From the NCBI GenBank assembly GCA_964023275.1, contig OZ029929.1, positions 6,487,935 to 6,551,934 on the forward strand: a stretch of DNA of 64,000 nucleotides, given 5' to 3'. The position numbers were made by a program, and so were the translations under genes. The notes under the pieces are model-generated. The model was not told the origin of the DNA and did no database searches. It saw only the letters and a list, made by a program, of their open reading frames with translations. Shown here piece by piece: positions 15,575 through 57,964 of the stretch. The stretch is from Norana najaformis (Eukaryota > Annelida > Clitellata > Crassiclitellata > Hormogastridae). The first letter of the stretch is position 1. Every line of letters begins with the position of its first letter.

Positions 15575-15608
<34 letters not shown>

Positions 15609-15809
15609 GTGTCTTGCCCCACTCAGGAGCATTGCCGTTTCCGCAACACGCTGCCAGCCATCTCTACAGTATTCTGGGCACGTCCTGCCGTACCTTAAAT
15701 AAACTTATCTTGTCCATATCCTTCCTTTCTGAGATCTATTTGTACATTGTGTGTAGAATGTGAATTGTATTTGGATCAATAGAGGAGAATAATAATAATA
15801 AAAATAATA

Positions 15810-15841
<32 letters not shown>

Positions 15842-24800: not shown

Positions 24801-27800
24801 TGAAAGAGTTGTGTCTTTAGTTTAGACCTGAATGACATCAAAGAATTGACAGAACGAACTGGATAGTGACTTCCAAACCTTTGGACCAACTACCGATAAG
24901 GCACGAAAGCCCAACACTGTTCAGATACGGGGTACAGCAAGAGTCACAGTTTCCATTGGTCGAGTGCAATATCTGTTATTATGGCATCAGCATGAAACAT
25001 AGATAGGTTGGCTGATTTAAATATATTACTTTGTGAACTAAAAGACAAATCTTGAAATGAATTCTTTGCTCATTGGGCACCCAGTGTAATGAATGTAATA
25101 TTGGCTTACTGGCCTAGTTAGCTACAGCAGTAAGAGCGTACGCCTAGGAAGCCTCGGTGCGTGAGGATCCCAGGTTCGCGTCCCGGTCGTGGCTTATTTC
25201 AGAGATTTGAATCTCGGGCTAGTACGGTCCGTGCACGGGGACCTTAAATGGCGTGTAGCGGTGGTGAAGGATCTCACCCATGCGCGAGTGAAATCCATAT
25301 GATCGCTTTAGAAAAACGTGTACAATTTACAATTTTTTTTAATATACTGATATTTAGAGGTCTTTTTATGACTGCAACTGATTCTAGAATTCCATGTAAC
25401 TTTTTAACAGATATTCAGTGATGGCTGGTACTCCTGACAAGATCCTTGAATATCTTCTGGAAACACGAATTGGAAAGGCTTGCGACTCAGCTGGTATGTT
25501 CTGTCAACAACATTTTCCATTTATATTTGTCGGAAGTGTAGCTGTTTTACAAATCAGTAGTTCTCATACATTTCGGTTGTTTTTGATAACTGATTCCCTT
25601 GTAATATTTTGTAATGTATTGGCAAAAGACGTTTGTATAGCTCCATTTTACAAGACTAATGATAATACAATAGTTTTGGTGTTTAGTGCTTTTACTGTCA
25701 GAGGGGTAGTCTCCACATGTTTTTTCCTTTGAAAATTTACAGTGTATTTCATATGACCATCAAATTTTTCATTTGATGATGATCTTAGCTTTTTCCATTT
25801 GTCAGTTGTTACCCTGGCTGTCTTTTCTAAATTCGTGGTACATTGCTGTATGCATCTCAGTGTGTTGCACCGTTTCTTAGTACTTAGTTGGCTTCTAAAC
25901 ATGATCACATCATCCCAGTTCTTAAATGGTTGCATTGGCTCCCTGTTGAGCAGAGAATTAAATGCGAAATTAGTGTAATTACCTACAAGACATGGCATTC
26001 AGGTAACTGCAATACCTTCAAAATATGCTTACCCCTCGGACCTAGCGTTACTCCATTAATTACTGTTATTTATTATTATTATTATTATTTCTGCATTTAT
26101 TAAGTGCCACTCTCTACCCACTAAGCTTCAACAGGTGGTGCTGAGCAATTGTGAGTAAAGGACTTGCTCAAAGTCCTTATGCATTAACCGTCTCAGGAGA
26201 AAGTCTTGAACTGTACTCTCTGCATTACAAGCTGAGCACTCTAACCTACCTGCTGCCATGCCACTAAGCCCTCTGATTGTCTCTTTCTTGCTGTGGCTCG
26301 AGTGAATGCTATTCTCAGAAGCAGTTTTCCTGTTGCTGTACCAACAGTACGGGATACATTTCCACAATCTGTTCACACTTGTGGGTCTTTAGTGTCTTTC
26401 CATTCTCAACTGAAGACATTTTTCAACATGCTTATCCTCCTTGGGCTGCCTTTCTGTCTTATCAGACGGTTTTTGGGGAGCCATCGATTGATGCTTAGTG
26501 CATTACTATAATGGCGCTATAGAAGTTATAAACTAATGAGCAGATAATTAAATGCAATTATTATTATTGTTTCATGGTAGGTTGGATTACAGGCAATATA
26601 TTTCTAGGTAGCTGGTCATTGTTTTTGTTGTTGTGGTTGTTGTTGATGATGATTGTTTTGTTGGAGGTGCATAATAAATACCTTTTCTCTTGGTATTGTC
26701 TTTTAGATACATTCTGTGAAGACTTTCTCCTGACCCACATCATCTTCATGCCAAATAATCACCTGGGCCCAACGCTAATGGCTCAATATCCTTGTCGCTG
26801 ATTTTAGTTGGAATGCAGGATAATTGATTTCTTCAAGAAATACCATTAACAGCTGTGATATACGGTAGCTTGATGTAAACAAACGTTTGGAGTCTGGTTA
26901 CCAGTATATTACATGTGAGATTTCATGAAAACGTCTAAATTAAGGTAAGGTAAGCTAATTGTTTATTTCACATTTCCATCAACATTAGCATTAACAGAAT
27001 GCTGGTTTTAAAATGGTGATAGAAACAAAATCATGAACAGCATCAATAATCCTTAGTGTCATAGTCCGATGGATTGAAGTATTTTGACTACACTTCAATG
27101 CTGCTTTTAATTTGCGCTTTAAGCAAAGGCTTCTTAATCCACAGGACCAGTTCAGTGACTGTTTAGCATTTCTTTAAAGTTATGGACGTTGTTGTTTAGT
27201 TGTATATAACATATGATATTAGATGCAGGGGTGATAGAAAATCCAGTAGCAATCAGCCACTATACCCATTCATTCATTCGTTCATTCGTTCAGAGCACTT
27301 ATAAAGCACCTCTTCTAGGTGGTTACTCAGAAGTGCTTCCAGCCTGGAAAAGAGAGAACAATTTTCAAGTACTGGTAGCAGCATTCCTGTCCAGAAGAGT
27401 CAGATTCAGAGGAAGAGAATTCCAGGTAGATGGCCCGACTACAACGAAGCTGCAGTGTACCATTGTTGAAACATTCACAGTCTAAACTGTGGATGGGTGT
27501 TGAACACAATTAGACTTTTAGCTGGTTGAATGCTGGCTATTGTGCAGACATTAGTTCAGAAGTAGCTTTCCTTATCTATTTACTTATCATGCGGACGTGA
27601 CTTCCGGTAGAGCGAACTCTGATTCGCAGGAGTACGCAGTGACGAACAAGCGCCAGGTGATCCATTTTGTCTGGGAATGGTGCCAGACGATTGGAGAGGC
27701 TTTCTGGGAGGACAAGACAATACATGCCTTTCTTGAGGTAAAGTTTTCTCCACTTTCCATGTCCTCCATGTCATCCTGATTAGTATTAGTTATTCAGATT

Positions 27801-30800
27801 AGCAACAGGTTAGGATCAGCTGTTAACGGTAAGACCATTAATGTGGAACAGCAGTAAATCATTTCTTGGAACACAAATGTATGAAGGTCGTGCTTGGTCA
27901 AAACGGTGTTACTCAACAGTTGAATCAATTACTTTGGAAGGTAAGATAAGGTAAAGTACCTTTTGCACACATGTGCTTCTGTCATCAAGCAGTAGAATTT
28001 TGGCACCGGCACGATAGTGGAAGTAAACATCAAGTCTTACAATGCACTAGTCTTGCGTCCAAAACCTTAAAATTCGTCAGTTTGTCAGCTCAAGGGCCAA
28101 AGAAAGGGAAATGATCGAGTTCCTCCTTTGAGTTCCCCTACCGCATTGAGGGCTTTTGCTTATTTTACCTTTTAAGTGTGCTTTACAGCACAGTTAATGC
28201 ACAGAATATCAGGACACGAGTCGAATGAACGGAATTGTATAATTCCTCATGGATCTCAACTAGTTTTGTCCAATAGATTTTGGTTTTGGAATGCAAGTTT
28301 TGACCAACGATTGATGTCCTGTGCATTGTGATAATGGCACTATAGAAGTTACAGAATAATGCACTTCTAATCACTGAATGTGTAAAGGGCATAAAAAATT
28401 TTAGTGCAACATTTCTTTTAGTACTTGTAGCACCTAACAGTACAAAGTTGCTGAAGAAATCTGTTAACAGATGGTTCCTTACATGTGTGTGCAACTTACT
28501 TGTTCCTCTAATAGGAACTTGAAAATGCGGTCGTTGAGGACAGCCAGATATACAGCAACCTTGAGGACATAACTATTCTTCAAAATGTTCTCCAGAGACG
28601 GCATAGGTATGTTAATTTATGTTAATTTATGTGTCTGATTTTGCATCTGCCTGATAAGTCACTTTGCTGATCAGATTATAGCAAGTCGGGTCAAACTTCA
28701 CAACATTAACCTCACTAGCTGTTTGATACTAGCTCAGTTTTTGCAGACAAAACCAACTTAGTAATGGCCTGTTACCAAAACTTGGATCCAGTTTCATACT
28801 GGTCTTCTTGCTACTGACCCATCTCGATACTGGCAATTTAATATGTGTATGAACCCAACCTGACATTGGGAATTATTATACTGATCAAGTCTGATTTGAT
28901 AGTGACCTAATTTGATATGTATATGAACCCAGTCTGATACTGACCCAACCTGTTACTAATGCAACTTGACATTGTCCCAACCTTCTGCTCACGCAGCTTA
29001 CTACAGATATAACTGTATACTAAAACAATCTGCTATTTACCCAAACTGATTTTGACCTGGCCTCACATGGACCTGACCCAAATCAGGCGTTTTTGTCTTT
29101 TCTTTTTGTGATGGGTTCAGTGAAGTGAGAACATCTCGCCACGGCAAAAGTCACTCTCCGCTTCACCGAGCATCACGCAGCCTTTCTTGCAGTATTGACG
29201 AAGATGACCTCAACCATCGTCAGCCTATCAGAGTCAGTGACCTGAGTATGTACCAGATTCACTGAGAGTTCTTTTATCACTGACCTATGACAGCTGCTAT
29301 CTAGCAAGAATCAGTAACTCAGTAATTGGTAGCCAGTCGGAGTCAGTGACTTTCCTGAGCTATTAATCTAATTATATGTGAGGTCAGACTGACAAAAGTG
29401 AGCAAGGCAAAAGCACATGGACCTAAACACCTAGGAGGTTTTGAATTTGTGCCTATCAAAATGCAATTATTGTATTTAGTAACTTATATAGCGCTTCTTA
29501 CAGAACAAACTACTGAAAGGCGCTTCCAGCGTGAGAACCCCGGGGAAATAAGAACGTCTTTAAACAACGAGCTGCTCAGCTCTATCACCAACAGAGACCC
29601 TTGCACGAAACAAAGGCGAAAGTCCATTCAACAGAGATGGGCCAATAACAGCAAAAGCCGTCTGCTGCAATATTATTAAGGCAATGCTTCCTTCCTCTGA
29701 TGATGATATGACAATGATGATGTTCATGGTGGTATAAAAGTGATGGTCAGAAGAACTTTGTGCAAACTCTCAGTTTTTTTGATGTCTTTATTCAGATCTG
29801 TTCAAGATCTTCTGTGCCGACCACACATACATCACTCTGAAGCTGCGCATGGACACAACAGTAGGTACCATCATCTCACACGCTGCCACCAAACTCAGTC
29901 TGGGAGATTCCTCGCTCGTCCTGTGCGAGGTCAAGTCCAACGGAGGTCAGTATCTATGCATCGAGGTAATTATAATAGCACCTCTTAAGTAGCTCTCAGA
30001 AGCGGTGGAAAGTGCATGTGATGCTTCATGCCTTCACCACATGCTGTTCTAAAAAGCATGTTTGTATGGTGTAAGGTCTTTTAGCTGAAGAACAACGAGA
30101 GTGTAGTTGAAATTCAACAGCAGTGAAATTTGTTCATATGGCTGCTTGGTTTGACAGTGACTGTCCATGACCATGTGATCACACAATGCGCAGGGACTCT
30201 GCTTGAAATTGGGTACTAATGCTGCTGAGAAGAGCGGTCTCTTAAACTAATCCGTAGGTGCAGCCATGGGTATAAGGTATCAGCAAAGAGCACAGTCAGC
30301 ATACTCATTTTATAGTTGAGTTCCCTATAGGGTGCTAATGGAACAGAATTTTGTCATGGTAGAGATTTGAAGCCCAGACCTCTGGGTTTACAGTGCAACA
30401 CACTGCTAGATCCTTGCACAACCACTAATGCTGCTAAGCTTTGCAAGAATAAAACAGCAATAAATATTGAATGCTGTCTCTTTCCGTGATACCTTTTCAT
30501 TGCCAGATATTGACGAGTCTTATCCAGTCCAGATATATTACCTTCTCTCCAGACTGATTTGTCCAGCCCTTTGATGCATAACACCTCAGGGTAAATTAAG
30601 TGAATTAATAAATACCAGTGATTGAAGTCTGTTGTGTTTTGAACAGAGCGTGTAGTGTTTAACGAGAATGATCTGTGCGTTACGAGTGGAATGAGTATCA
30701 ACGGTCGACTGTTTATCAGCCCAAGAGAACATCTAGATGCCTTGGTCAGCTGATCCTTAGCTGTCAATCAAGTCATTAGTCAATCATTCGATCGGTATTA

Positions 30801-33800
30801 CCAATGTAAAAAGTGCTTTAAATAAATAAATAATTAAATAATTAATTAATTAAGGAAAGGTTGTCCTGTTGGTAGATTGCTATTGTTGTGTTTGTGCTTA
30901 TCTGAAAGATTCTTCAATCCCAGAACCATTGTTCATTGGTTGATAATCTAGTCAGTCATACAGTCAGGTAAATAAGTGGTTGAATCTGCAATCACTGAGA
31001 TTTAGGTTTGCCATCAATGATTGATGCCTGGTGCATTATGGTGTTGCCTCTATGGAAGTGACTAGATGAGATTGGATTCTCACTACGCTATCATATTGGC
31101 AATTCATTGTTTAGTCATAGAGCCATGTCTGATTGTTGAATTGCTGTTTTCGAGTATCCACTTCAGCTGATTCATCCTTCACCCCGATGTACACCTTCAT
31201 TAGTTACCGGTTTCAACAATGGTCCTCATTGGCATAATATACTGTGATAAGGTAATCACTCAATGTCAATGATGGTCCTCCAAATTATAGTCCTGTAATT
31301 GAAAACTTGGATAGGGTGGGAAAATACAGCAATCCGTCAACCAGACAGCAGTTTGTTAAAGGTATGAGGGCTAAGCAAGAAATTGTCATATTTACATGAC
31401 ATGCAAAAGTTCAAACCAAAACTTAGCCTTTACCAGGTGACAAGCCTAGCTTTTAACGCTGCCCAAAATCATCTGTAAATTTCTGGTTATGTTGTGTTTC
31501 CTTACTTAGCTTAATTGTAATAATGTAATGTAATGTAATCGAAAATTTATAAAGCGCCAGTTCAAGATAGACTCCTCAGAGGCGCTGCCGGCCCGACAAC
31601 CCAGAAGCACTGGGAAATAGGAAGGTCTTCAAGCACATGCAGAAAAGAGAGGGAGAGAGACTAAGAAGTTCCTGGTGCCCATTCCAAAAAACAGGACCAA
31701 CCACAGCAAAACTTCTGTGCTGGGCCGTAGCTGCCGAACAAAGTAGTCTGTGGCCCGGAATGGAGGAGGCCAATAATAAGGGACTTTTTGAGTTGCATGT
31801 ATTAAGGAACTGCATATCTAGAATTCGTTTGTTGCTTGCTTTCAGACACCTTTGCCTGAACAGGAGGGTCCATCAACCGGGTCAAGCCACTTTCTGGAGG
31901 TGCTAAGTTCACGAGAGGTTGCCTATCACATGACCTGTTATGACTGGCAGCTCCTGAACTGTGTCCACGAGGCAAGGATTTTTGATGACTGGTTAAATGA
32001 GCAACTTAACGCAGTTGCTCACATGCTCACTGTTCTATTCTGTTACCCAACTATGTATGTATGTATGTATTATCAGGCTTTTTAATTAGTGCCTTTTAAG
32101 AACCTTGCAAAGAAGCTTTATAAATAGCCAGATGTGTTATCTACCCTGGTCTTGCCTGCTTGTTCTTGTAGTATGAGCTCATATACCTTGTCTTTGGACG
32201 GTCTAACTTTGGTCGAATCACTGCGAACCTTGACCTCTTCCTTCGTCGTTTCAATGAAGTTCAGTTTTGGGTCGTCACCGAAATGTGCCTTACAACGTCG
32301 ATTAGCAAACGAATACAACTGCTCAGGAAGTTCATCAAGATTGCTGCCTAGTAATTGTCATCTAATCCTTGATAAAATGACTTTATCTACACTGTGAACA
32401 AAACACGAACCCTTCAAAGTATTTTTCCAATAACTAATGGAATTTTTTATGCAAGTTTAATCCAAACTAGATGAATATTAATTAGTTCAGTGATTACAGA
32501 TTTAATGTAACTGTATTTTAATTATCTATATGTTCAAAATGTCCTCCCTTCGCCTCAGCAGAGGTGTGTTGCTGAAAATGTTTAACAGTTTTGTAATCTT
32601 CACTGGATACCATTTTTTTCAAGGGGATCTTTACAATTGACGTCACTGTAATGTTACTTTTTAACAGGGACTGTTATTATTTTACACTTAGTTGCTACTA
32701 TAGTCGCAGTTAAAACAGTCTTAATTTATTTAAACTTTTGAATATTTAGATAGTTAATTTTAAAATAATTCAAGGGTTTGTTGTTCCTGTTCACAGTGTT
32801 TGATCTACTTCAATCTTTTCATATTCAGTGTTGGTTGCTATGTAATGAATAATCTGGAATAAGTATTATCTCAACCATAATGTAAAATTTAAACTTTTCT
32901 TTAATCAAAAGCTCATTATAAATCTTGCTGCAGAATGTTTAAAATATACTTGAATTTGTAATGTTGATGAGTCATACAGACATGCCTCAGATATGCTGCT
33001 GTTACTTATGTAAAAAGTGCTTTAAATAATTATTTAATTAAGGAAAGGTTATCCTGTTGGTAGATTGCTATTGTTATGTTTGTGCTTATTCTGAAAGATT
33101 CTTCAATCCCAGAACCATTGTTCAGATTACAGAACAGACAGTATGATTGAATTAGTGTGTTAAATTAGTGGTAACTGATTTATTGTACTAAATTAGTAGT
33201 AGTTAACTAACTAGTAACTCCTACTCTGTCTTTGCTGTGGAAAACAGATCACTCAACAGAATCCCATAGTTCGATGCTTCAATCAATACTGCACTTTGCT
33301 GCAATACACTGCTTACTCAGTAGAACTTTTTTGTCATTCATTTGATTACTTTTCTTTTCTTGAAGCTGCGAAGACTATCAGAACCTCAACACGTTCTTTG
33401 CAATTATCCTTGGCCTAAGTAACATTGCGGTTTCACGTCTGTCGCAGACATGGGAGGTATGACTATGACTTTTTGGTTATGTGCATCGATAGCTTGACTT
33501 CAGCAGCACGTTCTCCATCATTTTCTACCAATAACCTAGCTTCATCATCATCATTCCTTTTCTGTTCACTATTTTCATTGTTCATTCTCCAAATAAAACC
33601 GTACCGTTAAATGACAGCCATTGGAGTGGCTTTGCTCTGTCCTTGAAGGACGAACAATGATGGTAGACACTGGCTTTACTCATAAGTCGGCATGGGCATC
33701 TGTTTCATTCGGTGTCTCACAGGGCTCAGTTCTTGGGCCACTATTGTACATTCCTTACACGACCGACCTGACCAAGATCATCACTGCTTTAAAAGCCCGG

Positions 33801-36706: not shown

Positions 36707-38392
36707 TAGAGCAACAAGAAGCAATGCTCTATGAAGTCCATCTCATTAGTCGTCCATCTGACTACCAGGTACTCAAATGCCTGACCACTGTGCCAGATGC
36801 TGGAGAAGCTTCAACCGTTTTGGTACCAGCTGCAGATGACCTGAACCTAAAGGGTTAATGAATGAATGAGGTCATCCTTGTGGTTCAGTTAGGCTTCTGT
36901 TCCTTTAAGTTTACCCCATTTCCGTTTTTCTTGAGCCCCTTTCTTCTAGTTTAGGCTCCTTTTCTATGTGTTTAAGCTGTCTTTTTGCTTCACTTGGTTA
37001 ATTATGTTGTTTTTAATTTTGTTTAAGCTTTGTCCAGGGTTCAGAACCCAGTCGTTTGAAAGTAGCAATTCTTGTTAAGCTATAAAGAACATTCTGGTTT
37101 TTAGATAGCTGTTGTTGAGTCTGTGCTTAAGCCGAAGGATTTTGAAACCAATGGACTGTGAGGACAGTAGTTTTTCATTGAAGAGGGTACCTTACATAGT
37201 GAATTGACTGCAGAATCACAAGGAGATTATTTTTACATAGTATGGATTGGCAGAATGAGATTGTTGGCTGTATAAGCTGTGATCATAGGGTACAATAATT
37301 TTATGAAGAGTAGCATAGACTGTACATGATTGTGCTTTCAGCTGTTTCTGTGAAAATTCTCAGTACTTTTGAACAATTTCCCTACCCAAGGTAGAACCAG
37401 TTGCAGTGGTTTGCCCTTGTTTTAATTATAACCTGTGCTTATCAAAGGACAAGGGGTGGGCGATTGTGAATGTTTTGGCCTATAGATCCCACTGTGTGCA
37501 TTTTGAAATTAAGAATTTGTTGTTGAGTTGCTTATTTGTAAAGATAGTCCTGTTGTTAGATTGCTGTGTTGCCGTCAAAAGGTCCCTCAGCCACAACCAA
37601 GACCATACATACCTCTGAGAACTACAGAACTGATGGAGGTGCCTAATAATCATGCTTTCTTGTTTTCATCAACTTGTATATGTAGTTTTATTGGCTCAAC
37701 ATTTTGCTGCTACTTTCCTTTCCCTGTCATTGTTTAAATTGTCTATAATTTCCCTATGTTTTAGATATTCAAAATATTGTAATTGTAATCATGTATGTTA
37801 GAAGTTACTAATTGCTATATGTTGAATATTTTGTTTATATTCATTTACATTTTGTCTATAATTCCCCGTTGTAGTTTATGTGTTGAATATGCTGTTTATC
37901 TGTTGTGTTAGTACCATTTATTCCCTAGGTTGTATATGTTTCCTATGTGGTATTTGCATTGTTTCCATACCTATGTGTTTTGTGTAGAACTGCTGTTTGT
38001 TGACTTAACACTACTGACTGTCTCATGTATCTTGTTCCGGTAATAGTGATGCCTGTGCTGCTTTTTTTCCCAGTACATTTCAACTGTGCTGTTGCTTGTA
38101 TGTTCCATGTGCCGTGTTAATATTATTTGCCACTTAGGTTGTGTCAGTATTACCTATATGTTGTGTTCAGACAGACTATGTTCCTGTACATTTTGTTAAT
38201 AATTCCAGTTTAGTGTGTGTATAAATGATGTATTATGTTGTTGCCATTCCCATGTGTTTACATATTAGTAATGTTGCTTATATACTGTTTATACTTCCCC
38301 ATTTGTGTGTATTGAGCTACCCTGCCCGTAGCACTGTGTGTTCATCACTTTTATATCAATTGAATTGTAACAGTGAAGATCTCAGTATTTTG

Positions 38393-38398
38393 AATAAA
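38393..38398 (+). terminator. Candidate poly(A) signal of EPAC copy 1
   Basis: AATAAA about 1.7 kb after the stop, at the end of a T-rich, repeat-poor stretch (36707-38400) that resembles a long 3' UTR. The same hexamer is at 54512 in copy 2. Position-based inference. Confidence 0.35.
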
Positions 38399-39466
38399 AT
38401 GCTGTCTAAACAGCTCCATGACAATATTTGTTAAAAATCCTTCATCATGTGATATGGTCAGAATGTTGCCAAACCATACAACGTGCAAACGTTTCCAGAT
38501 GTACTGTTTGCCTGTATGTCTAACATGGTGGCCACTAGTGTCTGCTCTTAGCAAGCAGTCATTATGGTAGAGAGGCTGGTTCAAGCCTCCCTTTTTTCTA
38601 AGCATCCCCCTATTTTCCATCTGTCCCAAGCTGCTTCTACTTCCTACCCAATCACCCCATTCCTTGCTAGTAATTTAAGGTGGTACAAAGGCAACATTTG
38701 TATAGCATACTTATGTGAGGTACTTAAAAGGCGCTATATTAAGTGTCCTGGTGCAATTGAACCCTTATAAAGTCTTCTTGAGTTGCCTACAGGTAATAAA
38801 CAGCCACTTGTGTTGCCATTCCTACCTTACGTTACCATGATACCAAGACAAACACGTGCATCACATTTCAATATATTTACTAATAATTATTACATTTGCA
38901 TTAATACATGTTTTTATTTAGTAACAATTATACTTTTTATTAATAGTTTCTGTTTATTATTAAGCATTGCAGGCAGAGTGTTACTTATAGGCAGTTATAA
39001 TAAACATCTCAAACAAAACTGATATATCTGGTATATAAAAAGTCTTTCAAAAAATATAATGCAGTTCAAAAGCATCATTTAATCCAAAGCTGCATTCTGA
39101 AGAATCTGAAAAAAATTCATAGAAAAACTGTCTGCCCTGTTTGGAGATCTAATTTGCACGTTAAGCCATGCGCAATACTCTTAATTTAAAAACTGGAAAG
39201 TGTATTTATTATTTTGAATGCTAATGTCTGAACAGCTTTATCTAAAAATCCTTCATGCCCAGACCCCTGAGGACTTAGAAAATAATGACCAAATAATACA
39301 GGTACTATAAGACTTTGTGTCAATGTAACAATGAAGTAAACCAGGCGCCTGCTCATTTGAAACATAGTGTACATTACAACCAATAAGATTTGCCATGCAA
39401 AATGCTAAAATGTTTGCTTTGGATTTCGGAAATGTATATGAATTTAGGATCCATATGTAAAGCAAT

Positions 39467-39784
39467 TCGGAATGCCTGCTGAGGCTATGCCATCAGTGGT
39501 GAAGGTCTTGGCCGAGGTACCACCTAGGGCGCTTCACGAGGTGGACAGGCTCAGCGGGAACCCTGAAACAGCTGGCTAACGTGGGCGGCACCGCCGCCTC
39601 TGGTGCCACAAGGATATCAGAGCCAGTTCCAAGCCTGGAACTCATTTCATAGAGAAGTGCAAGGGTCGAACGGATGGGTGCAGATACTCCATTCATAAAG
39701 GAAACAGACAAAGGAAATCCAATGCAACCATGCAGTGGACACCTACGGGCTCTTGGCCCATGGATCATAATGATGATGATGATG
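39467..39784 (+). mobile_element. Unit-1-specific retroposon, 318 bp, with 12-bp target-site duplication
   Basis: Flanked by atgtaaagcaat at 39455-39466 and 39785-39796; the site is empty in unit 2 (near 55569-55580). Ends in an (ATG)n tail, so forward orientation. GC-rich body; class not assigned (RTE-like end or SINE). Confidence 0.85.
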
Positions 39785-42356: not shown

Positions 42357-42435
42357 ATACATTCTGTGAGGACTTTCTCCTGACCCACATCATCTTCATG
42401 CCAAATAATCACCTGGGCCCAACGCTAATGGCTCA
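42357..42435 (+). CDS. EPAC exon 14, copy 2
   Basis: Same as copy 1 with one silent change (GAA to GAG). Preceded by gtcttttag and followed by the same U12 donor atatccttg. Confidence 0.88.
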
Positions 42436-45400: not shown

Positions 45401-48400
45401 ATCGAAGTCAGTGACTTTCCTGAGCTATTAATCTAATTATATGTGAGGGCAGACTGACAAAAGTGAGCAAGACAAAAGCACATGGACCTAATCACCTAAG
45501 AGGTTTTGAATTTGTGCCTATCAAAATGCAATTATTGTATTTAGTAACTTATATAGCGCTTCATACAGAACAAACTACTGAAAGGCACTTCCAGCATGAG
45601 AACCCTGGGGAAATAAGAACGTCTTTAAACAACGAGCTGCTCAGCTCTATCACCAACAGAGACCCTTGCACGAAACACGAAAGGCGAAAGTCCATTCAAC
45701 AGAGATGGGCCAATAACAGCAAAAGCCTTCTGCTGCAATATTATTAAGGCGATGCTTCCTTCCTCTGATGATGATATGACAATGATGATGTTCATGGTGG
45801 TATAAAAGTGATGGTCAGAAGGACTTTGTGCAAACTCTCAGTTTTTTTTATGTCTTTATTCAGATCTGTTCAAGATCTTCTGTGCCGACCACACATACAT
45901 CACTCTGAAGCTGCGCATGGACACAACAGTAGGTACCATCATCTCACACGCTGCCACCAAACTCAGTCTGGGAGATTCCTCGCTCGTCCTGTGCGAGGTC
46001 AAGTCCAACGGAGGTCAGTATCTATGCATCGAGGTAATTATAATAGCACCTCTTAAGTAGCTCTCAGAAGCGGTGGAAAGTGCATGTGATGCTTCATGCC
46101 TTCACCACATGCTGTTCTAAAAAGCATGTTTGTATGGTGTAAGGTCTTTTAGCTGAAGAACAACGAGAGTGTAGTTGAAATTCAACAGCTGTGAAATTTG
46201 TTCATATGGCTGCTTGGTTTGACAGTGACTGTCCATGACCATGTGATCACACAATGTGCAGGGACTCTGCTTGAAACTGGGTACCAATGCTGCTGAGAAG
46301 AGCGGTCTCTTAAACTAATCCATAGGTGCAGCCGTGGGTATAAGGTATCAGCAAAGAGCGCAGTCAGCATACTCATTTTATAGTTGAGTTCCCTAGAGGG
46401 TGCTAATGGAACAGAGTTTTGTCATGGCAGGGATTTGAAGCCCAGACCCCTGGGTTTACAGTGCAACACACCACTAGACCCTTGCACACCCACTAATGCT
46501 GCTAAGCTTTGCAAGAATAAAACAGCAATAAATATTGAATGCTGTCTCTTTCCGTGATACCTTTTCATTGCCAGGTATTGACAAGTCTTATCTAGTCCAG
46601 ATATATTACCTTCTCTCCAGACTGATTTGTCCAGCCCTTTGATGTATGACACCTCAGGGTAAATTAAGTGAATTAATAAATACCAGTGATTGAAGTCTGT
46701 TGTGTTTTGAACAGAGCGTGTAGTGTTTAACGAGAATGATCTGTGCGTTACGAGTGGAATGAGTATCAACGGTCGACTGTTTATCAGCCCAAGAGAACAT
46801 CTAGATGCCTTGGTCAGCTGATCCTTAGCTGTCAATCAAGTCATTAGTCAATCATTCGATCGGTATTACCAATGTAAAAAGTGCTTTAAATAAATAAATA
46901 ATTAAATAATTAATTAATTAAGGAAAGGTTGTCCTGTTGGTAGATTGCTATTGTTGTGTTTGTGCTTATCTGAAAGATTCTTCAATCCCAGAACCATTGT
47001 TCATTGGTTGATAATCTAGTCAGTCATACAGTCAGGTAAATAAGTGGTTGAATCTGCAATCACTGAGATTTAGGTTTGCCATCAATGATTGATGCCTGGT
47101 GTATTATGATGTTGCCTCTATGGAAGTGACTAGATGAGATTGGATTCTCACTACGCTATCATATTGGCAATTCGTTGTTTAGCCATAGAGACATGTCTGA
47201 TTGTTGAATTGCTGTTTTCGAGTATCCACTTCAGCTGATTCATCCTTCACCCCGATGTACACCTTCATTAGTTACCGGTTTCAACAATGGTCCTCATTGG
47301 CATAATATACTGTGATAAGGTAATCACTCAATGTCAATGATGGTCCTCCAAATTATAGTCCTGTAATTGAAAACTTGGATAGGGTGGGAAAATACAGCAA
47401 TCCGTCAACCAGACAGCAGTTTGTTAAAGGTATGAGGGCTAAGCAAGAAATTGTCATTTTTACATGACATGCAAAAGTTCAAACCAAAACTTAGCCTTTA
47501 CCAGGTGACAAGCCTAGCTTTTAACGCTGCCCAAAATCATCTGTAAATTTCTGGTTATGTTGTGTCTCCTTACTTAGCTTAATTGTAATAATGTAATGTA
47601 ATGTAATCAAAAATTTATAAAGCGCCAGTTCAAGATAGACTCCTCAGAGGCGCTGCCGGCCCGACAACCCAGAAGCACTGGGAAATAGGAAGGTCTTCAA
47701 GCACATGCAGAAAAGAGAGGGAGAGAGACTAAGAAGTTCCTGGTGCCCATTCCAAAAAGCGGGACCAACCACAGCAAAGCTTCTGCGCTGGGCCGTAGCT
47801 GTTCGGACCGATGGGACAAGCAAGTCCCCCCGTACCGCCGAACAAAGTATACTGTGGCCCGGAATGGAGGAGGCCAATAATAAGGGACTTTTTGAGTTGC
47901 ATATATTAAGGAACTGCATATCTAGAATTCGTTTGTTGCTTGCTTTCAGACACCATTGCCTGAACAGGAGGGTCCATCAACCGGGTCAAGCCACTTTCTG
48001 GAGGTGCTAAGTTCACGAGAGGTTGCCTATCACATGACCTGTTATGACTGGCAGCTCCTGAACTGTGTCCACGAGGCAAGGATTTTTGATGACTGGTTAA
48101 ATGAGCAACTTAACGCAGTTGCTCACATGCTCAATGTTCTGCTCTGTTGCCCAACTATGTATGTATGTATGTATTATCAGGCTTTTTAATTAGTGCCTTT
48201 TAAGAACCTTGCAAAGAAGCTTTATAAATAGCCAGGTGTGTTATCTACCCTGGTCTTGCCTGCTTGTTCTTGTAGTATGAGCTCATATACCTTGTCTTTG
48301 GACGGTCTAACTTTGGTCGAATCACTGCGAACCTTGACCTCTTCCTTCGTCGTTTCAATGAAGTTCAGTTTTGGGTCGTCACCGAAATGTGCCTTACAAC

Positions 48401-51400
48401 GTCGATTAGCAAACGAATACAACTGCTCAGGAAGTTCATCAAGATTGCTGCCTAGTAATTGTCATCTAATCCTTGATAAAATGACTTTATCTACACTGTG
48501 AACAAAACACGAACCCTTCAAAGTATTTTTCCAATAACTAATGGAATTTTTTATGCAAGTTTAATCCAAACTAGATGAATATTAATTAGTTCAGTGATTA
48601 CAGATTTAATGTAACTGTATTTTAATTATCTATATGTTCAAAATGTCCTCCCTTCGCCTCAGCAGAGGTGTGTTGCTGAAAATGTTTAACAGTTTTGTAA
48701 TCTTCACTGGATACCATTTTTTTCAAGGGGATCTTTACAATTGACGTCACTGTAATGTTACTTTTTAACAGGGACTGTTATTATTTTACACTTAGTTGCT
48801 ACTATAGTCGCAGTTAAAACAGTCTTAATTTATTTAAACTTTTGAATATTTAGATAGTTAATTTTAAAATAATTCAAGGGTTTGTTGTTCCTGTTCACAG
48901 TGTTTGATCTACTTCAATCTTTTCATATTCAGTGTTGGTTGCTATGTAATGAATAATCTGGAATAAGTATTATCTCAACCATAATGTAAAATTTAAACTT
49001 TTCTTTAATCAAAAGCTCATTATAAATCTTGCTGCAGAATGTTTAAAATATACTTGAATTTGTAATGTTGATGAGTCATACAGACATGCCTCAGATATGC
49101 TGCTGTTACTTATGTAAAAAGTGCTTTAAATAATTATTTAATTAAGGAAAGGTTATCCTGTTGGTAGATTGCTATTGTTATGTTTGTGCTTATTCTGAAA
49201 GATTCTTCAATCCCAGAACCATTGTTCAGATTACAGAACAGACAGTATGATTGAATTAGTGTGTTAAATTAGTGGTAACTGATTTAATGTACTAAATTAG
49301 TAGCAGTTAACTAACTAGTAACTCCTACTCTGTCTTTGCTGTGGAAAACAGATCACTCAACAGAATCCCATAGTTCGATGCTTCAATCAATACTGCACTT
49401 TGCTGCAATACACTGCTTACTCGGTAGAACTTTTTTGTCATTCATTTGATTACTTTTCTTTTCTTGAAGCTGCAAAGACTATCAGAACCTCAACACGTTC
49501 TTTGCAATTATCCTTGGCCTAAGTAACATTGCGGTTTCACGTCTGTCGCAGACATGGGAGGTATGACTATGACTTTTTGGTTATGTGCATCGATAGCTTG
49601 ACTTCAGCAGCACGTTCTCCATCATTTTCTACCAGTAACCTAGCTTCATCATCATCATTGCCATGTTCCTTTTCTGTTCACTATTTTCATTGTTCATTCT
49701 CCAAATAAAACCGTTCTGTTAAATGACAGCCATTGGAGTGGCTTTGCTCTGTCCTTGAAGGACGAACAATGATGGTAGACACTGGCTTTACTCATAAGTC
49801 GGCATGGGCATCTGTTTCGTTCGGTGTCTCACAGGGCTCAGTCCTTGGGCCACTACTGTACATTCCTTACACGACCAACCTGACCAAGATCATCACTGCT
49901 TTAAAAGCCCGGGTTCATAAATATGCCAATGATGGTCCAGCTGTATCTGACATGCCACCCACCTGACACGCGGGTTTGTGGAGCTCTGGATTCCTGACAA
50001 AACGATCAGCTGGGGTCAATGGGCAATGGGACATGTTTGTCTCGCGCCTCATATGACGATGCTTTCTTGTGTATTTGGACTGACCTTCTGGAACAATCTT
50101 CCCCTGAAACTACATACTTTTCGGAGAGAGACAGCTGAAGAAACATTTGCAACTTATATCGCACCTTTTTAGAACTGTCACATAGCCATGTTTTAGCATG
50201 ACTGCGAGGTTCTTCAGGTGCTTTGTAAATAGCCACATCCATACATACATACATTCATACATACATATGTACATACATCATTACATTCATATATACATAC
50301 ATATATACAAACATACATACATACATACCTACATACATTCATACATACATCCGTATATATACATACATTCAACATACAATTCAACATACATACAAACATA
50401 AAACGATGTTGACATACGGCATAAAAGAAAGGAGCCATTACCATAATTTACTGCTGAACCATTTGTTGCCAATAACTACTGAGTGCATTAAACTTCAGAA
50501 GCTGCCAAACAAGTTTAGAAAGATGTTCGTGGATTTTGAAATGATGATGGATCCATCTCGAAATCATCGAGCTTACCGTCTGGCCGTTGTTAAAATTCTG
50601 CCACCAATCATTCCGTTCATGCCACTGCTCATGAAAGGTTGTCATTAATTGTTGTTATTGTTATTTTTACTGTTTTGATTGTTGTTTCTAACTGATCATT
50701 TTTATGAACGAAATAATACCGTTGTTTAGTTGACTTCGTTGCAGTAACTGTAAATATCATTTTTATACACATTATGAGTGGGATGCAGTGGTGTAGTGAT
50801 ATAGTCTGTGCTTCGTAATCATAGGGTCTTGGGTTCAAATCTGCCCAGGCCATTGTGTAGCGACCTTGGACAAGTTGTTCACCCACAGTTGTCTGTGAGG
50901 AAGGCAACAGGAAACCACCTAACTCATCTCATCCCCAGGTGGCATAAAGCCAAAGGACCTGCCTTCAGGCAGGGAACTCATCATCGTGGTCACACATTAT
51001 GATGAACATCATCATCGTTTATTACTCATTTATTATTGTTGTCATCAACCCCTGTGCAGCTGCATTTTAGGACAAAGACATTAGCTGATTTAGCCTGCTT
51101 TTTGATAACTTTTCAGATATGACTTTCACACACGAAGGCAACAAAACCCATTTTGATGGACTCGTCAACTTTGAGAAAATGGTAATTCTGTTTTGGTTAC
51201 TTGCTGCATATGTATTTGACACTCAAATGAGAAGCATAGGGGTACTTAGCAATGAGAAGCATAGGGGTACTTAGCAACTATACATTTATGTACTGCTGCT
51301 TGTAAGAAGTCGACCTAAGTTCCTGAAGCTGTCTGTATTTACTGATCTTGATTATACTTTTTCCAGCATATGATTGCACAGACGTTGAGGATGATCAAAT

Positions 51401-52834
51401 TCTGTCGCAGCAAAGCGCTTGGTACGTATAACAATGTCTGTGTTTTAAAATAAGATGATTAATGTACTGTAATAAACTTACATCCCTCCTAATCAAACAT
51501 TACATTACATTGCAGGGACTGACAGGTTCTTATTGGACACCGGCTGCTTGTCTGTCCTCCCACTTCAAAATTTCTGCAAGAATCATGAACTCATAACTGT
51601 GTATTCTTGTTCTCATTCCTTAAACATTTTGGGGCAGTTAAGCCGGAGGCTTCTTTCAAAGGTTAAAGAATGTTAGGCTAACAGTCTCAGAGCTTCTATG
51701 TTATGCAGTGGATCAGAGGAATATAGTAAAATTGCAGCCTGGAACAGATTGTGATTAAATGGAAGTGACCATGTGTGATATGTACTGTCTGGTTATAACT
51801 ATAACTATAATGCATTGACTACATGTATATATTGTATTTATCTGTTATTTATGCAGCCCCTTTAAAGACATCTGAAGCCTGCAAGCAGACATCTATGTTA
51901 CTTTAAGAGCCATATTGTGCATATAATTATGGAGCACAGTGGAATTATGGACTGTTGACCATATTTTAAGACAAACCATGCATATGAGTAGTCTTGCCGC
52001 ATTGGAGTTTGCTGTTATCAGACATTATTTGAAGAGAGTGGAACGGTTAAGTGGTTGTGTGCATTTGTTTCTCTGGTTTAACATTTTAGACTTTGATCCA
52101 CCGCCGCTCGTAAAGACAACACAGGATGTCCGAAGCTACATCAGGTTTTTTCATTTGTTCATTTATGGCTACTGGTGTAATGTATAGTAACACAACTGGT
52201 CAACACTGAAGACTGATTTCACCTTGAAGCAATATGCAATAATTTATTTATTTATTATTATTTTTGATTTATTATCTATTTATTATCCTCTTTCGTTAGG
52301 ACAAAAGCACTTGTGACTACCAGGTAGATTAGATTATATCAGGTGATTGAAATGCTGACTTAAAAATGGATTTTGACTGTTGTTGATGCAAGCTAGGGTG
52401 CGTTAGCATCTTTTGCAGGATTTTGAGTCCATTTGTTTGTTGTCAGGCCTTGAGCATGCCCTCTGCTTCTTAGATTTGGCTCTGCTAGGCCATAGTTACC
52501 TATGTGCTGTTTGTACTGAGCTTACCTGCCTATCTTTGGTAGTCATCAGGGCTTTTGTTTCTGTGATTCTGAGTGTTGTGAGAAAGTCAACAGTTCATTT
52601 TCAACAGATGCAACCTGTTACGAGAGAAAGTGGAGTTGCTTGATTTCGTTTGTACTACAGTGTGCTATTGTTGATAGGGGCATGCACGGCAGTAAATGAG
52701 CGATTGCCTTATCCTGCCTAACTTTACCTTGCCTTCTCAATCTACACTGTTTATATTTTTTCAGAAGTCTCAACGTTATCGACAACCAGCGCATCCTCAC
52801 ACGGCTCTCCCATCGTTTGGAGCCACGCAGGTGA
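42357..52834 (+). CDS. Second copy of EPAC exons 14-27 (REM-RA-CDC25 half-gene)
   Basis: Fourteen exons with the same lengths (1478 bases in total), phases and splice sites as copy 1, all open, ending at the same TGA (52832-52834). By eye I count about eight base differences from copy 1 in the coding part, three of them in two replaced residues (Glu to Lys in exon 22, Pro to Ala in exon 25). It lacks cNBD-A, DEP and cNBD-B, so alone it would encode an unregulated Rap GEF. It could instead be joined to exon 13 as an alternative catalytic half, since phases fit. No promoter is evident upstream. It may also be a misplaced second haplotype of copy 1. Confidence 0.85.
42436..43237 (+). other. U12-type AT-AC intron, copy 2
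   Basis: All U12 signals kept: 5' atatccttg, branch ttccttatc at 43222-43230, 3' end tttac. The surrounding intron differs from copy 1 by several substitutions and small indels. Confidence 0.86.
43238..43391 (+). CDS. EPAC exon 15, copy 2
   Basis: Identical in sequence to copy 1 exon 15; REM helices; donor ttgag|gtaaag. Confidence 0.88.
44087..44478 (+). mobile_element. Unit-2-specific LINE insertion, 392 bp, with 9-bp target-site duplication
   Basis: Flanked by cttgtagca at 44078-44086 and 44479-44487; empty in unit 1 (near 28425-28435). Encodes [38 protein letters not shown] and [17 protein letters not shown], the C terminus of a non-LTR ORF2. Strongly 5'-truncated and little decayed, so recent. 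Confidence 0.88.
44570..44661 (+). CDS. EPAC exon 16, copy 2
   Basis: Two silent changes from copy 1 (GCG to GCA, CGG to CGA). A 392-bp LINE insertion ends about 90 bases upstream; it lies in the intron and leaves the acceptor intact. Confidence 0.87.
45186..45310 (+). CDS. EPAC exon 17, copy 2
   Basis: One silent change from copy 1 (CCT to CCG). Ser/Arg-rich REM-RA linker. Confidence 0.87.
45535..45750 (-). mobile_element. LINE 3' end (reverse), duplication unit 2
   Basis: Second copy of 29465-29670 with a few substitutions. Confidence 0.45.
45864..46013 (+). CDS. EPAC exon 18, copy 2
   Basis: RA domain; no difference from copy 1 seen. Acceptor tttattcag, donor cggag|gtcagt. Confidence 0.88.
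46715..46812 (+). CDS. EPAC exon 19, copy 2
   Basis: End of RA domain; no difference from copy 1 seen. Acceptor ttttgaacag, donor ccttg|gtcagc. Confidence 0.88.
47595..47900 (-). mobile_element. LINE 3' end (reverse), duplication unit 2
   Basis: Second copy of 31525-31790, keeping 36 bp (about 47803-47838) absent from unit 1; these extend the LINE reading with [18 protein letters not shown]. Confidence 0.65.
47950..48075 (+). CDS. EPAC exon 20, copy 2; GC donor
   Basis: Start of CDC25 domain; one silent change (CCT to CCA). The GC donor cgag|gcaagg is kept. Confidence 0.88.
48276..48454 (+). CDS. EPAC exon 21, copy 2
   Basis: CDC25 core; identical to copy 1, including [19 protein letters not shown]. 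Confidence 0.9.
49470..49560 (+). CDS. EPAC exon 22, copy 2
   Basis: One replacement against copy 1: CKDYQNLN instead of CEDYQNLN. The Lys matches vertebrate EPAC2 (HCKEYKNLN). Confidence 0.88.
49720..50170 (+). mobile_element. LINE reverse-transcriptase remnant, duplication unit 2
   Basis: Second copy of 33610-34060; the catalytic box reads YAND here. CATA microsatellite follows at about 50234-50395, with a different length from unit 1. Confidence 0.7.
50499..50637 (+). CDS. EPAC exon 23, copy 2
   Basis: Carries [11 protein letters not shown]; coding part the same as copy 1. The intron just before the acceptor lost a short stretch relative to copy 1, but ttcag is kept. Confidence 0.88.
50780..51015 (+). 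mobile_element. tRNA-derived SINE, duplication unit 2
   Basis: Second copy of the SINE at 34675-34910. Confidence 0.6.
51117..51181 (+). CDS. EPAC exon 24, copy 2
   Basis: Identical to copy 1: [20 protein letters not shown]. Acceptor acttttcag, donor aaatg|gtaatt. Confidence 0.88.
51367..51421 (+). CDS. EPAC exon 25, copy 2
   Basis: Reads FCRSKAL where copy 1 reads FCRSKPL (two adjacent-codon base changes, CCA to GCG). Donor changes from gtatgt to gtacgt, still acceptable. Confidence 0.86.
52090..52144 (+). CDS. EPAC exon 26, copy 2
   Basis: Identical to copy 1 ([16 protein letters not shown]). Acceptor aacattttag, donor atcag|gttttt. Confidence 0.87.
52765..52834 (+). CDS. EPAC exon 27, copy 2: C terminus and stop
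   Basis: Identical to copy 1, ending [11 protein letters not shown]. Acceptor ttttttcag. Confidence 0.88.
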
Positions 52835-54511
52835 TAGAGCAACAAGAAGCAATGCTCTGTGAAGTCCATCTCATTAGTCGTCCATCTGACTATCAGGTAC
52901 TCAAATGCCTGACCACTGTGCCAGATGCTGGAGAAGCTTCAACCGTTTTGGTACCAGCTGCAGATGACCTGAACCTAAAAGGTTAATGAATGAATGAGGT
53001 CATCCTTGTGGTTCAGTTAGGCTTCTGTTCCTTTAAGTTTACCCCATTTCCGTTTTTCTTGAGCCCCTTTCTTCTAGTTTAGGCTCCTTTTCTATGTGTT
53101 TAAGCTGTCTTTTTGCTTCACTTGGTTAATTATGTTGTTTTTAATTTTGTTTAAGCTTTGTCCAGGGTTCAGAACCCAGTCGTTTGAAAGTAGCAATTCT
53201 TGTTAAGCTATAAAGAACATTCTGGTTGTTAGATAGCTGTTGTTGAGTCTGTGCTTAAGCCGAAGGATTTTGAAACCAATGGACTGTGAGGACAGTAGTT
53301 TTTCATTAAAGAGGGTACCTTACATAGTGAATTGACTGCAGAATCACAAGGAGATTATTTTTACATAGTATGGATTGGCAGAATGAGATTGTTGGCTGTA
53401 TAAGCTGTGATCATAGGGTACAATAATTTTATGAAGAGTAGCATAGGCTGTACATGATTGTGCTTTCAGCTGTTTCTGTGAAAATTCTCAGTAGTTTTGA
53501 ACAATTTCCCTACCCAAGGTAGAACCAGTTGCAGTGGTTTGCCCTTGTTTTAATTATAACCTGTGCTTATCAAAGGACAAGGGGTGGGCGATTGTGAATG
53601 TTTTGGCCTATAAATCCCACTGTGTGCATTTTGAAATTAAGAATTTGTTGTTGAGTTGCTTATTTGTAAAGATAGTCCTGTTGTTAGATTGCTGTGTTGC
53701 CGTCAAAAGGTCCCTCAGCCACAACCAAGACCATACATACCTCTGAGAACTACAGAACTGATGGAGGTGCCTAACAATCATCATGCTTTCTTGTTTTCAT
53801 CAACTTGTATATGTAGTTTTATTGGCTCAACATTTTGCTGCTATTTTCCTTTCCCAGTCATTGTTTAAATTGTCTATAATTTCCCTGTGTTTCAGATATT
53901 CAAAATATTGTAATTGTAATCATGTATGTTAGAAGTTACTAATTGCTATATGTTGAATATTTTGTTTATATTCATTTACGTTTTGTCTATAATTCCCCGT
54001 TGTAGTTTATGTGTTGAATATGCTGTTTATCTGTTGTGTTAGTACCATTTATTCCCTAGGTTGTATATGTTTCCTATGTGGTATTTGCATTGTTTCCATA
54101 CCTATGTGTTTTGTGTAGAACTGCTGTTTGTTGACTTAATACTACTGACTGTCTCATGTATCTTGTTCCGGTAATAGTGATCCCTGTGCTGCTTTTTTCC
54201 CAGTACATTTCAACTTGTATGTTCCATGTGCCGTGTTAATATTATTTGCCACTTAGGTTGTGTCAGTATTACCTATATGTTGTGTTCAGACAGACTGTGT
54301 TCCTGTACATTTTGTTAATAATTCCAGTTTAGTGTGTGTATAAATGATGTATTATGTTGTTGCCATTCCCATGTGTTTACGTATTAGTAATGTTGCTTAT
54401 CTACCGTTTATACTTCCCCATTTGTGTGTATTGAGCTACCCTGCCCGTAGCACTGTGTGTTCATCACTTTTATATCAATTGAATTGTAACAGTGAAGATC
54501 TCAGTATTTTG

Positions 54512-54517
54512 AATAAA
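54512..54517 (+). terminator. Candidate poly(A) signal, copy 2
   Basis: AATAAA in the same place as in copy 1, about 1.7 kb after the stop. Confidence 0.3.
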
Positions 54518-57049
54518 ATGCTGTCTGAACAGCTCCATGACAATGTTTGTTAAAAATCCTTCATCATGTGATATGGTCAGAATGTTGCCAAACCATACAA
54601 CGTGCAAACGTTTCCAGATGTACTGTTTGTCTGTATGTCTAACATGGTGGCCACTAGTGTCTGCTCTTAGCAAGCAGTCATTATGGTAGAGAGTGCTGGT
54701 TCAAGCCTCCTTTTTTCTAAGCATCCCCCTATTTTCCATCTGTCCCAAGCTGCTTCTACTTCCTACCCAATCACCCCATTCCTTGCTAGTAATTTAAGGT
54801 GGTACAAAGGCAACATTTGTATAGCATACTTATGTGAGGTACTTAAAAGGCGCTATATTAAGTCTCCTGATGCAATTGTACCCTTATAAAGTCTTCTTGA
54901 GTTGCCTACAGGGAATAAACAGCCACTTGTGTTGCCAATCCTATCTTATGTTACCATGATACCAAGACAAACACGTGCACCACATTTCAATATATTTACT
55001 AATAATTATTATATGTGCATTAATACATGTTTTTATTTAGTAACAATTATACTTTTTATTAATAGTTTCTGTTTATTATTAAGCATTGCAGGCAGAGTGT
55101 TACTTATAGGCAGTTATAATAAACATCTCAAACAAAACTGATCTATCTAGTATATAAAAAGTCTTTCAAAAAATATAATCCAAAGCTGCATTCTGAAGAA
55201 TCTGAAAAAAATTCATAGAAAAATTGTCTGCCCTGTTTGGAGATCTAATTTGCACGTCATCTGAAACATTCGTTAAGCCACGCGCAATACTCTTAATTTA
55301 AAAATTGGAAAGTATATTTATTATTTTGAATGCTAATGTCTCAACAGCTTTATCTAAAAATCCTTCATGCCCAGACCCCTGAGGAGTTAGAAAATAACGA
55401 CCAACTAATACAGGTACTATAAGACTTTGTGTCAATGTAACAATGAAGTAAACTAGGTGCCTGCTCATTTGAAACATGGTGTACATTACAACCAATAAGA
55501 TTTGCCATGCAAAATGCTAAAATGTTTGCTTTGGATTTCGGAAATATATGTGAATTTAGGATCCATATGTAAAGCAATACAACCAGAAATTTATATATCT
55601 CGAGAGGCTCTCAAAAGTTGCCAATACAGAGCAAAATCATATGATGTAAGTTGAACTTGTGTGTTAGGTTTTATCAAGCAAAACAGATATGATCCATCTC
55701 CAGCAGACTATTCTATGAGACAGTACTTATAAATTTATGAGACACCTGTATCCTAGATTGTGGTAATATCATCATAAGAAGAGTTGTTTTTTTCTTAAAT
55801 ATGGCATTCAAAACGACTGCCTGCATTCCAACAGCAGTTTATAACTTGAAATACAACAGACAACTTGTCTAGTAAAAGCAGTCACTATGGCCTGCCTATT
55901 AAACACATATCTGATTGCAGGAAAGCCTAAAGAGCCAGACAGCATTGTGACTGTTGTATGCAGACATTAATTTTATAATGGAAAAGGAACAAATTTTCCA
56001 GCCATCAGAAAGTCCAGTTTAAAAAGTTTGAATCCAGACTTATATTCTCCAGCCAAATTTAAAATTTAATGCTCCAAAGATTTATGTAGTACATTCTTGC
56101 AGCCAGTGCTATGGAAACATCAGAGAAATCTGTCAACAATAATGTTACATATGATTTTGCTTGACATTTATATGAAGCCTATTCAGAGCCTCTCAGACTT
56201 CTTAAAAGACTTCAGAACAACCACAGACAAGAATGATAAAAACATTAAAGCTAACACATACTCTGTGCATTGGAGGATAACTTTTGGTATCTTCTACTGA
56301 TGGAAAATCTTATGGTTTTGGTTTTGCCCGCACTCAGCCACTGCCCTACTACACGCACACCTACAAGAAATGTCTTCTAACAGCACACGGTAATGTAGCT
56401 AAAAGGCTCACAGACAAAAATATGGCTGTAAAGGAATTCATCATGGCCTACACAAAACTTTTTAAGTATGCATGTATATTTGCATAATAACAATAAATAA
56501 TTGTAGCAATTTCTAAGATGCTGGCAGCTAATGAACAAGCCATCAATGTGCATCAAAATCAAGGCAAAAAACAGGCCAATTTCCCTAAGGTCAATCCAGA
56601 GAGACAGAGTCTAATGCAGGTAAGCCTGTCGAAAGAGGTAGGTCAGTCAAGACTGGAATGATATCAAAAACAGAGCTGAATGAACAGAGAGTAACAAAGA
56701 TTAGGACAAGCATCAGAAACTGAGCCTTTACACAGAACAGTTAGGCCAACAAGAGTACATAGGCCTCTGTATGTATTCAGATGCTACTATGGCTCATGTT
56801 AAGCCTCTGGGGTGTTGTATGCATGGCTGTCATGTTAAAAGTCAAGATCAACAAAAATGTTTCTTCATAATTGGACAACATTGGTGTCAGAGTTATGATC
56901 ACGGTGTGCTACCAAACAATCTATGTCTTTAAACATTCAGGCCACACTACTTTTGAGAGTGCAAGTGGTCTGGCTATGAATCTAGGTGGTCCATCCATTA
57001 TACCTAGACTGGTTGTGGTGTCAAAGACATCCTGTTAAACCAGAATGGT

Positions 57050-57490
57050 TTATGAAGAATCACTGGGGCTGTTCTTGCAGTGGACCAGGGTTCCAGACAG
57101 AGCGTGCCAAAGGTAGATGTTCTTGGTGTCAGAAGTTGGATACTCGTAGGCCTCTTGAACAGACCCGGTCCGGACAAGATTAACACCGGACCGACGGTCT
57201 TTGCTAGCCTTCTGAGTCACAGGCACATACCCGGCAACGTATCCTCTGTTGATTGCCTTAGTACTTGCTGTCTGCTGGTTCCACTGTTGTGGTGATCGTT
57301 CTAATGCTTGTGAAGCAGAGGTTTGTTTGTGTTTGCGGGGTGCTCCACCAGGGAACGCATCCGAGGTTGAGTAGTGGGTGCGGAGTGGGTTGTTTGTGGT
57401 TGAATTTCGCAAGCTGTAGCCATAGACCTCATTAGTTGTGCAGGGACGGTCTTTTGCCCAGCTGTAGTAAGCAGGCATGTGCGATGGCAT
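57050..57490 (-). CDS. Uncharacterised 146-codon ORF, copy 2
   Basis: Second copy of the 41280-41720 frame, same length and open. I see four replaced residues (Thr to Ala, Ser to Leu, Gly to Ser, His to Arg) and two silent changes, so constraint between the two copies is not obvious. Faces left, toward EPAC copy 2, with the RIIa-like gene 1.7 kb to its right in the other direction; a shared upstream region with that gene is possible. Confidence 0.45.
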   Translation of the reverse strand: MPSHMPAYYSWAKDRPCTTNEVYGYSLRNSTTNNPLRTHYSTSDAFPGGAPRKHKQTSASQALERSPQQWNQQTASTKAINRGYVAGYVPVTQKASKDRRSGVNLVRTGSVQEAYEYPTSDTKNIYLWHALSGTLVHCKNSPSDSS

Positions 57491-57964
57491 CTTGGAAGTC
57501 TACGACAAAGGATGCAGTGTCTATAATAGTTTCCTCAGGTTAATCGAATGACTTGTAATGCATGAATCATTAAACAGTTATTCTAATGATTCCAATGTGT
57601 GAAGCATTAAACAGTTAACATAATGCAATGTTCTGTTATCATGTACAATTTATATAGCGCCGCTGTGCATGTCATTATGTACATATTTCAACACACAGTT
57701 ATGTTCTCAATTAAGTAACCGCCACCTAAGCCTATGACATGTAAACATTGGCCACATGTCTTTCCCACTGCCCCAAGCAGATATTGTACCCTGCTACGTT
57801 CGGCCTATGACCCGTTGCTTATCCGTATTCATCCATATTATTTTATCACGTATTTACTTACATCGCAATTCAAACTTTTATTACAGGTTAACTGAACCAA
57901 AAAAGGACTGAAATCATTGAAAGTTTGAAATAATTCATGACAAAGCTGCCATTTTTCAGCTCTA

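Follow-up and report, generated by a model that had tools for sequence, protein, structure and literature searches.

Two adjacent copies of the catalytic half of an EPAC-type gene in the Norana najaformis assembly: alleles placed in series or a tandem duplication?

Does a gene for a cAMP-regulated exchange factor of the EPAC type carry its catalytic half twice in the earthworm Norana najaformis, or has the genome assembly set two versions of the same half one behind the other? The question arises from a window of 64,000 nucleotides (GCA_964023275.1, contig OZ029929.1, positions 6,487,935 to 6,551,934 of the forward strand), the whole of which was analysed here and in which the single regulatory half of the gene is followed by two adjacent units, each with a catalytic half. 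The initial annotation had left the choice between a genuine duplication that affects function and a serial assembly of two haplotypes. In our reading there is an even chance that the two units are two alleles of one EPAC segment, serially placed by the assembly, in which case the junction between them would be absent from the animal.

The two units were located and compared by self-BLAST and MAFFT alignment. They lie head-to-tail and directly adjacent, and 14,974 matches and 250 mismatches (161 transitions and 89 transversions) were counted over 15,224 aligned sites, corresponding to 1.64% substitutions. The alignment contains 34 gap entries, one of which arises at the end of the alignment, where unit 2 was cut 3 bases too long; the largest are a 401-bp insertion confined to unit 2 and a 330-bp insertion confined to unit 1, flanked by target-site duplications read by eye as CTTGTAGCA and ATGTAAAGCAAT, respectively (Table 1). 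Among the others are microsatellite steps, a difference of 36 bp and short tandem additions (10 and 25 bp); single bases or dinucleotides of ambiguous origin make up nine of the 34. By their sequence, the indels look natural and unlike sequencing errors. Each unit comprises 14 exons with an open frame, the same splice dinucleotides and a reading frame of 1,479 nt. Thus the earlier description of two adjacent units of 15.6 to 15.8 kb, about 98% alike, with intact frames and splice sites and a junction free of both gap and microhomology, was recovered with the same boundaries.

Judged by similarity, the duplicated gene is of the EPAC/RAPGEF4 type. Exons were placed using EPAC1 and EPAC2 sequences as seeds and then checked with tools; the numbers 14 to 27 are those of the initial annotation, while the upstream part is seen here as 11 similarity blocks and not as counted exons. 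The protein of unit 1 can be aligned along all of its 492 residues with EPAC2 of PDB 3cf6 (E 1e-173). In both unit proteins Pfam RasGEF is matched over the complete profile (1–181 of 181; E 2e-52 and 1.1e-52) and RasGEF_N above cut-off over profile positions 24–105 of 106. No RA domain was listed by Pfam at E 0.001, which returned only RasGEF and RasGEF_N for the unit proteins; the RA part, situated between REM and RasGEF, is placed by the full-length alignment with EPAC2. Accordingly, REM, RA and the CDC25-homology (RasGEF) domain follow each other in this order at the C-terminal end. The RasGEF_N match does not start until profile position 24, which places the beginning of each unit inside REM and the first part of this domain outside the unit. 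Upstream, on the same strand, are the 11 blocks similar to EPAC2, which we take to be the two cyclic-nucleotide-binding domains and DEP.

The coding parts of the two units differ at eight sites, six of them synonymous and two nonsynonymous, leaving two of 492 residues different between the proteins. The two changes fall at codons 337 (K in unit 2) and 450 (A in unit 2) of the duplicated part. The EPAC2 residues at these positions (Table 1) suggest that the E of unit 1 and the A of unit 2 are the changed ones, one per unit. Synonymous divergence (6 in 325 sites, 1.84%) is close to noncoding divergence (242 in 13,746 sites, 1.76%), and dN/dS is about 0.09. At a divergence of 1.76%, 20.3 nonsynonymous differences would be expected if both copies were free of constraint (P 3e-7 for two or fewer) and 10–11 if one copy were free (P 0.001–0.002). 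The latter figure rejects an old duplicate of which one copy was free, and the relaxed constraint that such a real duplication should show in that copy was not found. The deficit of nonsynonymous differences against the neutral expectation implies that both lines have been constrained, whether they are alleles or two copies under constraint.

Differences in noncoding sequence are unevenly spread along the units. Their index of dispersion is 2.36 per 500 bp, a value reached in none of 1,000 permutations, and the longest identical noncoding run extends over 871 sites, within a tract that is free of any difference between the units (Table 1). A duplication of uniform age without exchange is rejected, because neither this index nor the 871-site run was reached in any of 400 simulations, with the caveat that conserved noncoding sequence or gene conversion could also make divergence patchy. 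In simulated allele pairs, of which only those with a mean age within 15% of the expected one were retained (400 kept of 415–1,581 tries for each setting), the index and the run both fall within the 5–95% range at a ratio of recombination to mutation (rho/theta) of 3 or 10. In these models the allelic explanation fits well only with recombination 3 to 10 times mutation, and the divergence pattern falls between that of a single date and that of classic low-recombination alleles.

The junction is blunt. The left flank of unit 1 ends in GGGCTGCC and is followed by TTTCTG, the junction reads CGTATTTA followed by TTTCTG, and at the right flank CGTATTTA is followed by CTTACA. A microhomology of 0 bp is the outcome of 54% of 20,000 random joins drawn in the same neighbourhood. 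Both unit boundaries fall in noncoding DNA, and the left break of unit 1 sits in a dispersed repeat. The initial annotation had placed this break in the tail of a long interspersed nuclear element (LINE); a dispersed repeat is indeed found there and its identity as a LINE is plausible, although the open reading frame (ORF) at the repeat gave no Pfam match. In four of the five other repeat copies that were fetched (L004–L007, not L008), an aligned piece spans the break point; two of the four pieces are weak. Since repeat copies continue across the break, unit 1 probably still has its ancestral neighbour on the left, which makes the join at 42087/42088 the newly formed one whichever model applies. 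Besides the junction itself, a 201-base query placed over it matched the beginning of unit 1, the end of unit 2 and 37 dispersed-repeat places in the assembly, with no third copy among the 40 places scored of 195 candidates.

If the units are alleles, one assembled stretch, from haplotype A, would have ended at 42087, and another, from haplotype B and begun at 42088, would have been joined on. The overlap of the two stretches would then have become the apparent duplication, and the animal would have one ordinary EPAC gene with a single catalytic half. The allele-like constraint with intact coding sequence in both copies, the patchy divergence, the blunt join and the break in a repeat favour this reading, as does the symmetry of the pattern, in which a private insertion and a private amino-acid change occur once in each copy. 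Assemblies often break in dispersed repeats. Precedents are known: in the zebra finch, 9 of the 11 coding exons of ZBTB11 were falsely duplicated next to the original, and NPNT and NPNT-like form a similar case (PMC9516828).

Several observations weigh against two haplotypes in series. According to the same report, false duplications are mostly separated by gaps and sometimes joined by unsupported sequence, and both ZBTB11 and NPNT had gaps (PMC9516828). Here, the gap between copies that is usual, although not universal, is absent, and a blunt join free of gap and filler needs an unusual assembly step. The window contains no undetermined base (N), and none occurs within 90 kb of it; of the 264 kb examined around the window, 262.5 kb that include it are uninterrupted, one run of N lying beyond. 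The assembly, which we take as chromosome scale, comprises 608,420,607 bases in 17 sequences, the window being located on a sequence of 19.4 Mb (C17). So few sequences for 608 Mb, together with the lack of N within 90 kb, favour a real join. Furthermore, simulated alleles at rho/theta of 0.1, 0.3 and 1 are patchier than the observed pair, yielding an index as low as 2.36 with probabilities of only 0.035, 0.0125 and 0.0475, and at rho/theta 3 the observed 100-bp index of 1.41 lies just under the 5–95% range of 1.45–2.3. The reading presupposes an allelic divergence of about 1.6% in this species, and the patchiness could also stem from the gene conversion or conserved noncoding sequence considered above.

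Somewhat less likely, but still to be taken seriously, is a real 15.6-kb tandem duplication, young or segregating and formed by end joining, whose copies carry different alleles through recombination with single-copy chromosomes. Such a duplication would be an ordinary one: unit 1 would yield normal EPAC, spliced from the single upstream half, and unit 2, which lies beyond the stop codon of unit 1 and six AATAAA motifs, would be mostly silent. The gap-free junction within 262.5 kb of uninterrupted sequence in an assembly of 17 sequences argues for it. Recombination with single-copy alleles should account equally well for constraint, patchiness and the identical tract of 1,050 bp. Hence the sequence by itself does not separate a segregating duplication from alleles placed in series, since both should give the same pattern, and for this reason the simulation figures leave the odds where they were. 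An allele-specific tandem duplication within one contig appears among the true cases in the survey of false duplications (PMC9516828), and in Drosophila about 80% of new duplications are tandem (PMC3207856). Against a real duplication stands the rejection, given above, of a fixed duplication this old in which one copy is free, so that any real duplication must be segregating or recombining. The lack of microhomology is a further point against it: replication-based duplications often show microhomology.

It is improbable that both catalytic halves are used, with exon 13 spliced to the exon 14 of either unit, which in the case of unit 2 means passing over unit 1. The two halves would then be kept intact by selection and yield two EPAC proteins that differ at two residues, with different 3' untranslated regions. 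Frame and splice dinucleotides are preserved in each of the 28 exons, also at an AT-AC intron, purifying selection has acted on both copies, and the first exon has the same start and phase in both units, so that the upstream exon could join either. However, unit 2 is reached only if splicing bypasses 14 exons, a stop codon and the six AATAAA motifs, little would be gained from proteins this similar, and alleles account for the constraint on both copies equally well. Very improbable is a short guanine nucleotide exchange factor (GEF) made from unit 2 alone and free of cAMP control, as had been proposed earlier: although the greater part of REM, the RA part and a complete RasGEF domain are all contained in a unit, unit 2 starts inside REM and is preceded by the stop codon and the six AATAAA motifs of unit 1, its putative promoter is hypothetical, and two differing residues give no sign of a changed role. 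Of the alternatives first put forward, the structure and the EPAC identity thus stand, whereas the functional reading is weak.

The doubling may be an assembly error and makes a poor case for a novel gene design. If it is an error, it warns that even a clean-looking tandem copy, free of gaps and with all of its exons intact, may be allelic, and annotators could call a false "EPAC-like" gene at this locus. If it is real, a partial duplication of a cAMP-signalling gene would have been caught while its copies recombine with single-copy chromosomes, with testable effects on dosage and splicing; and if both halves were used, it would provide a natural test of a cAMP-sensing gene gaining a second catalytic output. 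Under every model, both versions of exon 14 would be seen spliced to exon 13 in the RNA of a heterozygote.

Table 1. Features of the EPAC-type locus (positions in the window; slashes separate unit 1 from unit 2)
Feature	Position	Strand	Remarks
Regulatory half of EPAC, single copy, to REM start	2832..25465	+	11 similarity blocks to EPAC2
Unit 1	26451..42087	+	15,637 bp; exon "14" (mid-REM) to stop codon 36704-36706, then 5.4 kb downstream
Unit 1 coding exons, whole span	26707..36706	+	
Unit 1 coding exons, 1st to 7th of 14	26707-26785, 27584-27737, 28515-28606, 29121-29245, 29796-29945, 30647-30744, 31846-31971	+	
Unit 1 coding exons, 8th to 14th of 14	32172-32350, 33366-33456, 34393-34531, 35014-35078, 35238-35292, 35961-36015, 36637-36706	+	
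Tract without differences between units	32133..33182	.	1,050 bp: 179 exon bases and 871 noncoding
Nonsynonymous difference	33370 / 49474	+	E (unit 1) vs K (unit 2); EPAC2 of PDB 3cf6 has K
Codon with two changes, nonsynonymous and synonymous	35286..35288 / 51415-51417	+	P (unit 1) vs A (unit 2); EPAC2 of PDB 3cf6 has P
330-bp insertion, unit 1 only	39455..39784	.	12-bp target-site duplication; (ATG)n end
Unit junction	42087..42088	.	blunt; 0 bp microhomology; no N
Unit 2	42088..57856	+	15,769 bp; same segment again, 1.64% substitutions
Unit 2 coding exons, whole span	42357..52834	+	
Unit 2 coding exons, 1st to 7th of 14	42357-42435, 43238-43391, 44570-44661, 45186-45310, 45864-46013, 46715-46812, 47950-48075	+	
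Unit 2 coding exons, 8th to 14th of 14	48276-48454, 49470-49560, 50499-50637, 51117-51181, 51367-51421, 52090-52144, 52765-52834	+	
401-bp insertion, unit 2 only	44078..44478	.	9-bp target-site duplication

Two introns of the duplicated half deviate from the common type. The intron after the first duplicated exon (26786–27583 and 42436–43237) is AT-AC, with identical ends in both units; its donor ATATCCTT is presumably U12-like and TTCCTTATC presumably a branch-like motif. A GC-AG intron with the donor GCAAGG is present in both units at 31971/31972 and 48075/48076.

Within the span of the regulatory half lies a 64-bp minisatellite (7405–8616; 19 copies, 94% match). A second minisatellite, of 36 bp, occupies 17420–18106 with 18.7 copies; as 36 is a multiple of three, an open frame of 116 residues, built of 12-residue repeats, extends over 17827–18177, just before the exon block 18164–18337, which uses another frame. 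Minisatellites aside, the 264 kb contain one other same-strand pair of at least 800 bp at 90% identity or more. This pair, 3.4 kb long and 92% identical, is spaced by 12 kb and located about 93 kb to the left of the window, near position 6395254 of C17 (L009–L011). In the window, no RNA family was found at the gathering threshold and no tRNA, and the Pfam scan of 10 of its 102 ORFs at E up to 1 gave only names below cut-off, none of which was used.

Comparison with known systems places the gene beside EPAC/RAPGEF4 (and RAPGEF3), the cAMP-regulated Rap exchange factors, with which it shares the end-to-end alignment to EPAC2 and the similarity of the upstream regulatory half, and from which it differs in that the catalytic half appears twice in this assembly. 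A literature search for EPAC/RAPGEF duplication in molluscs gave no match, which does not prove that the case is unpublished. A U12-type AT-AC intron is listed for Drosophila Epac and human RAPGEF3 in PMC2831892, and the intron found here is alike in type. With partial-gene tandem duplications that segregate as copy-number variants, the locus has in common the head-to-tail order, one clean new junction and noncoding boundaries; in contrast to these, it is known from the assembly alone and both copies are constrained in their coding sequence, which is unusual for an old free copy. Finally, the heterotype false duplications, as characterized by Ko et al. 2022 (PMC9516828), differ from the present case in its gap-free junction, but share with it an adjacent partial gene copy, an allele-like divergence, and exons that are intact in both copies while the remaining exons are single.

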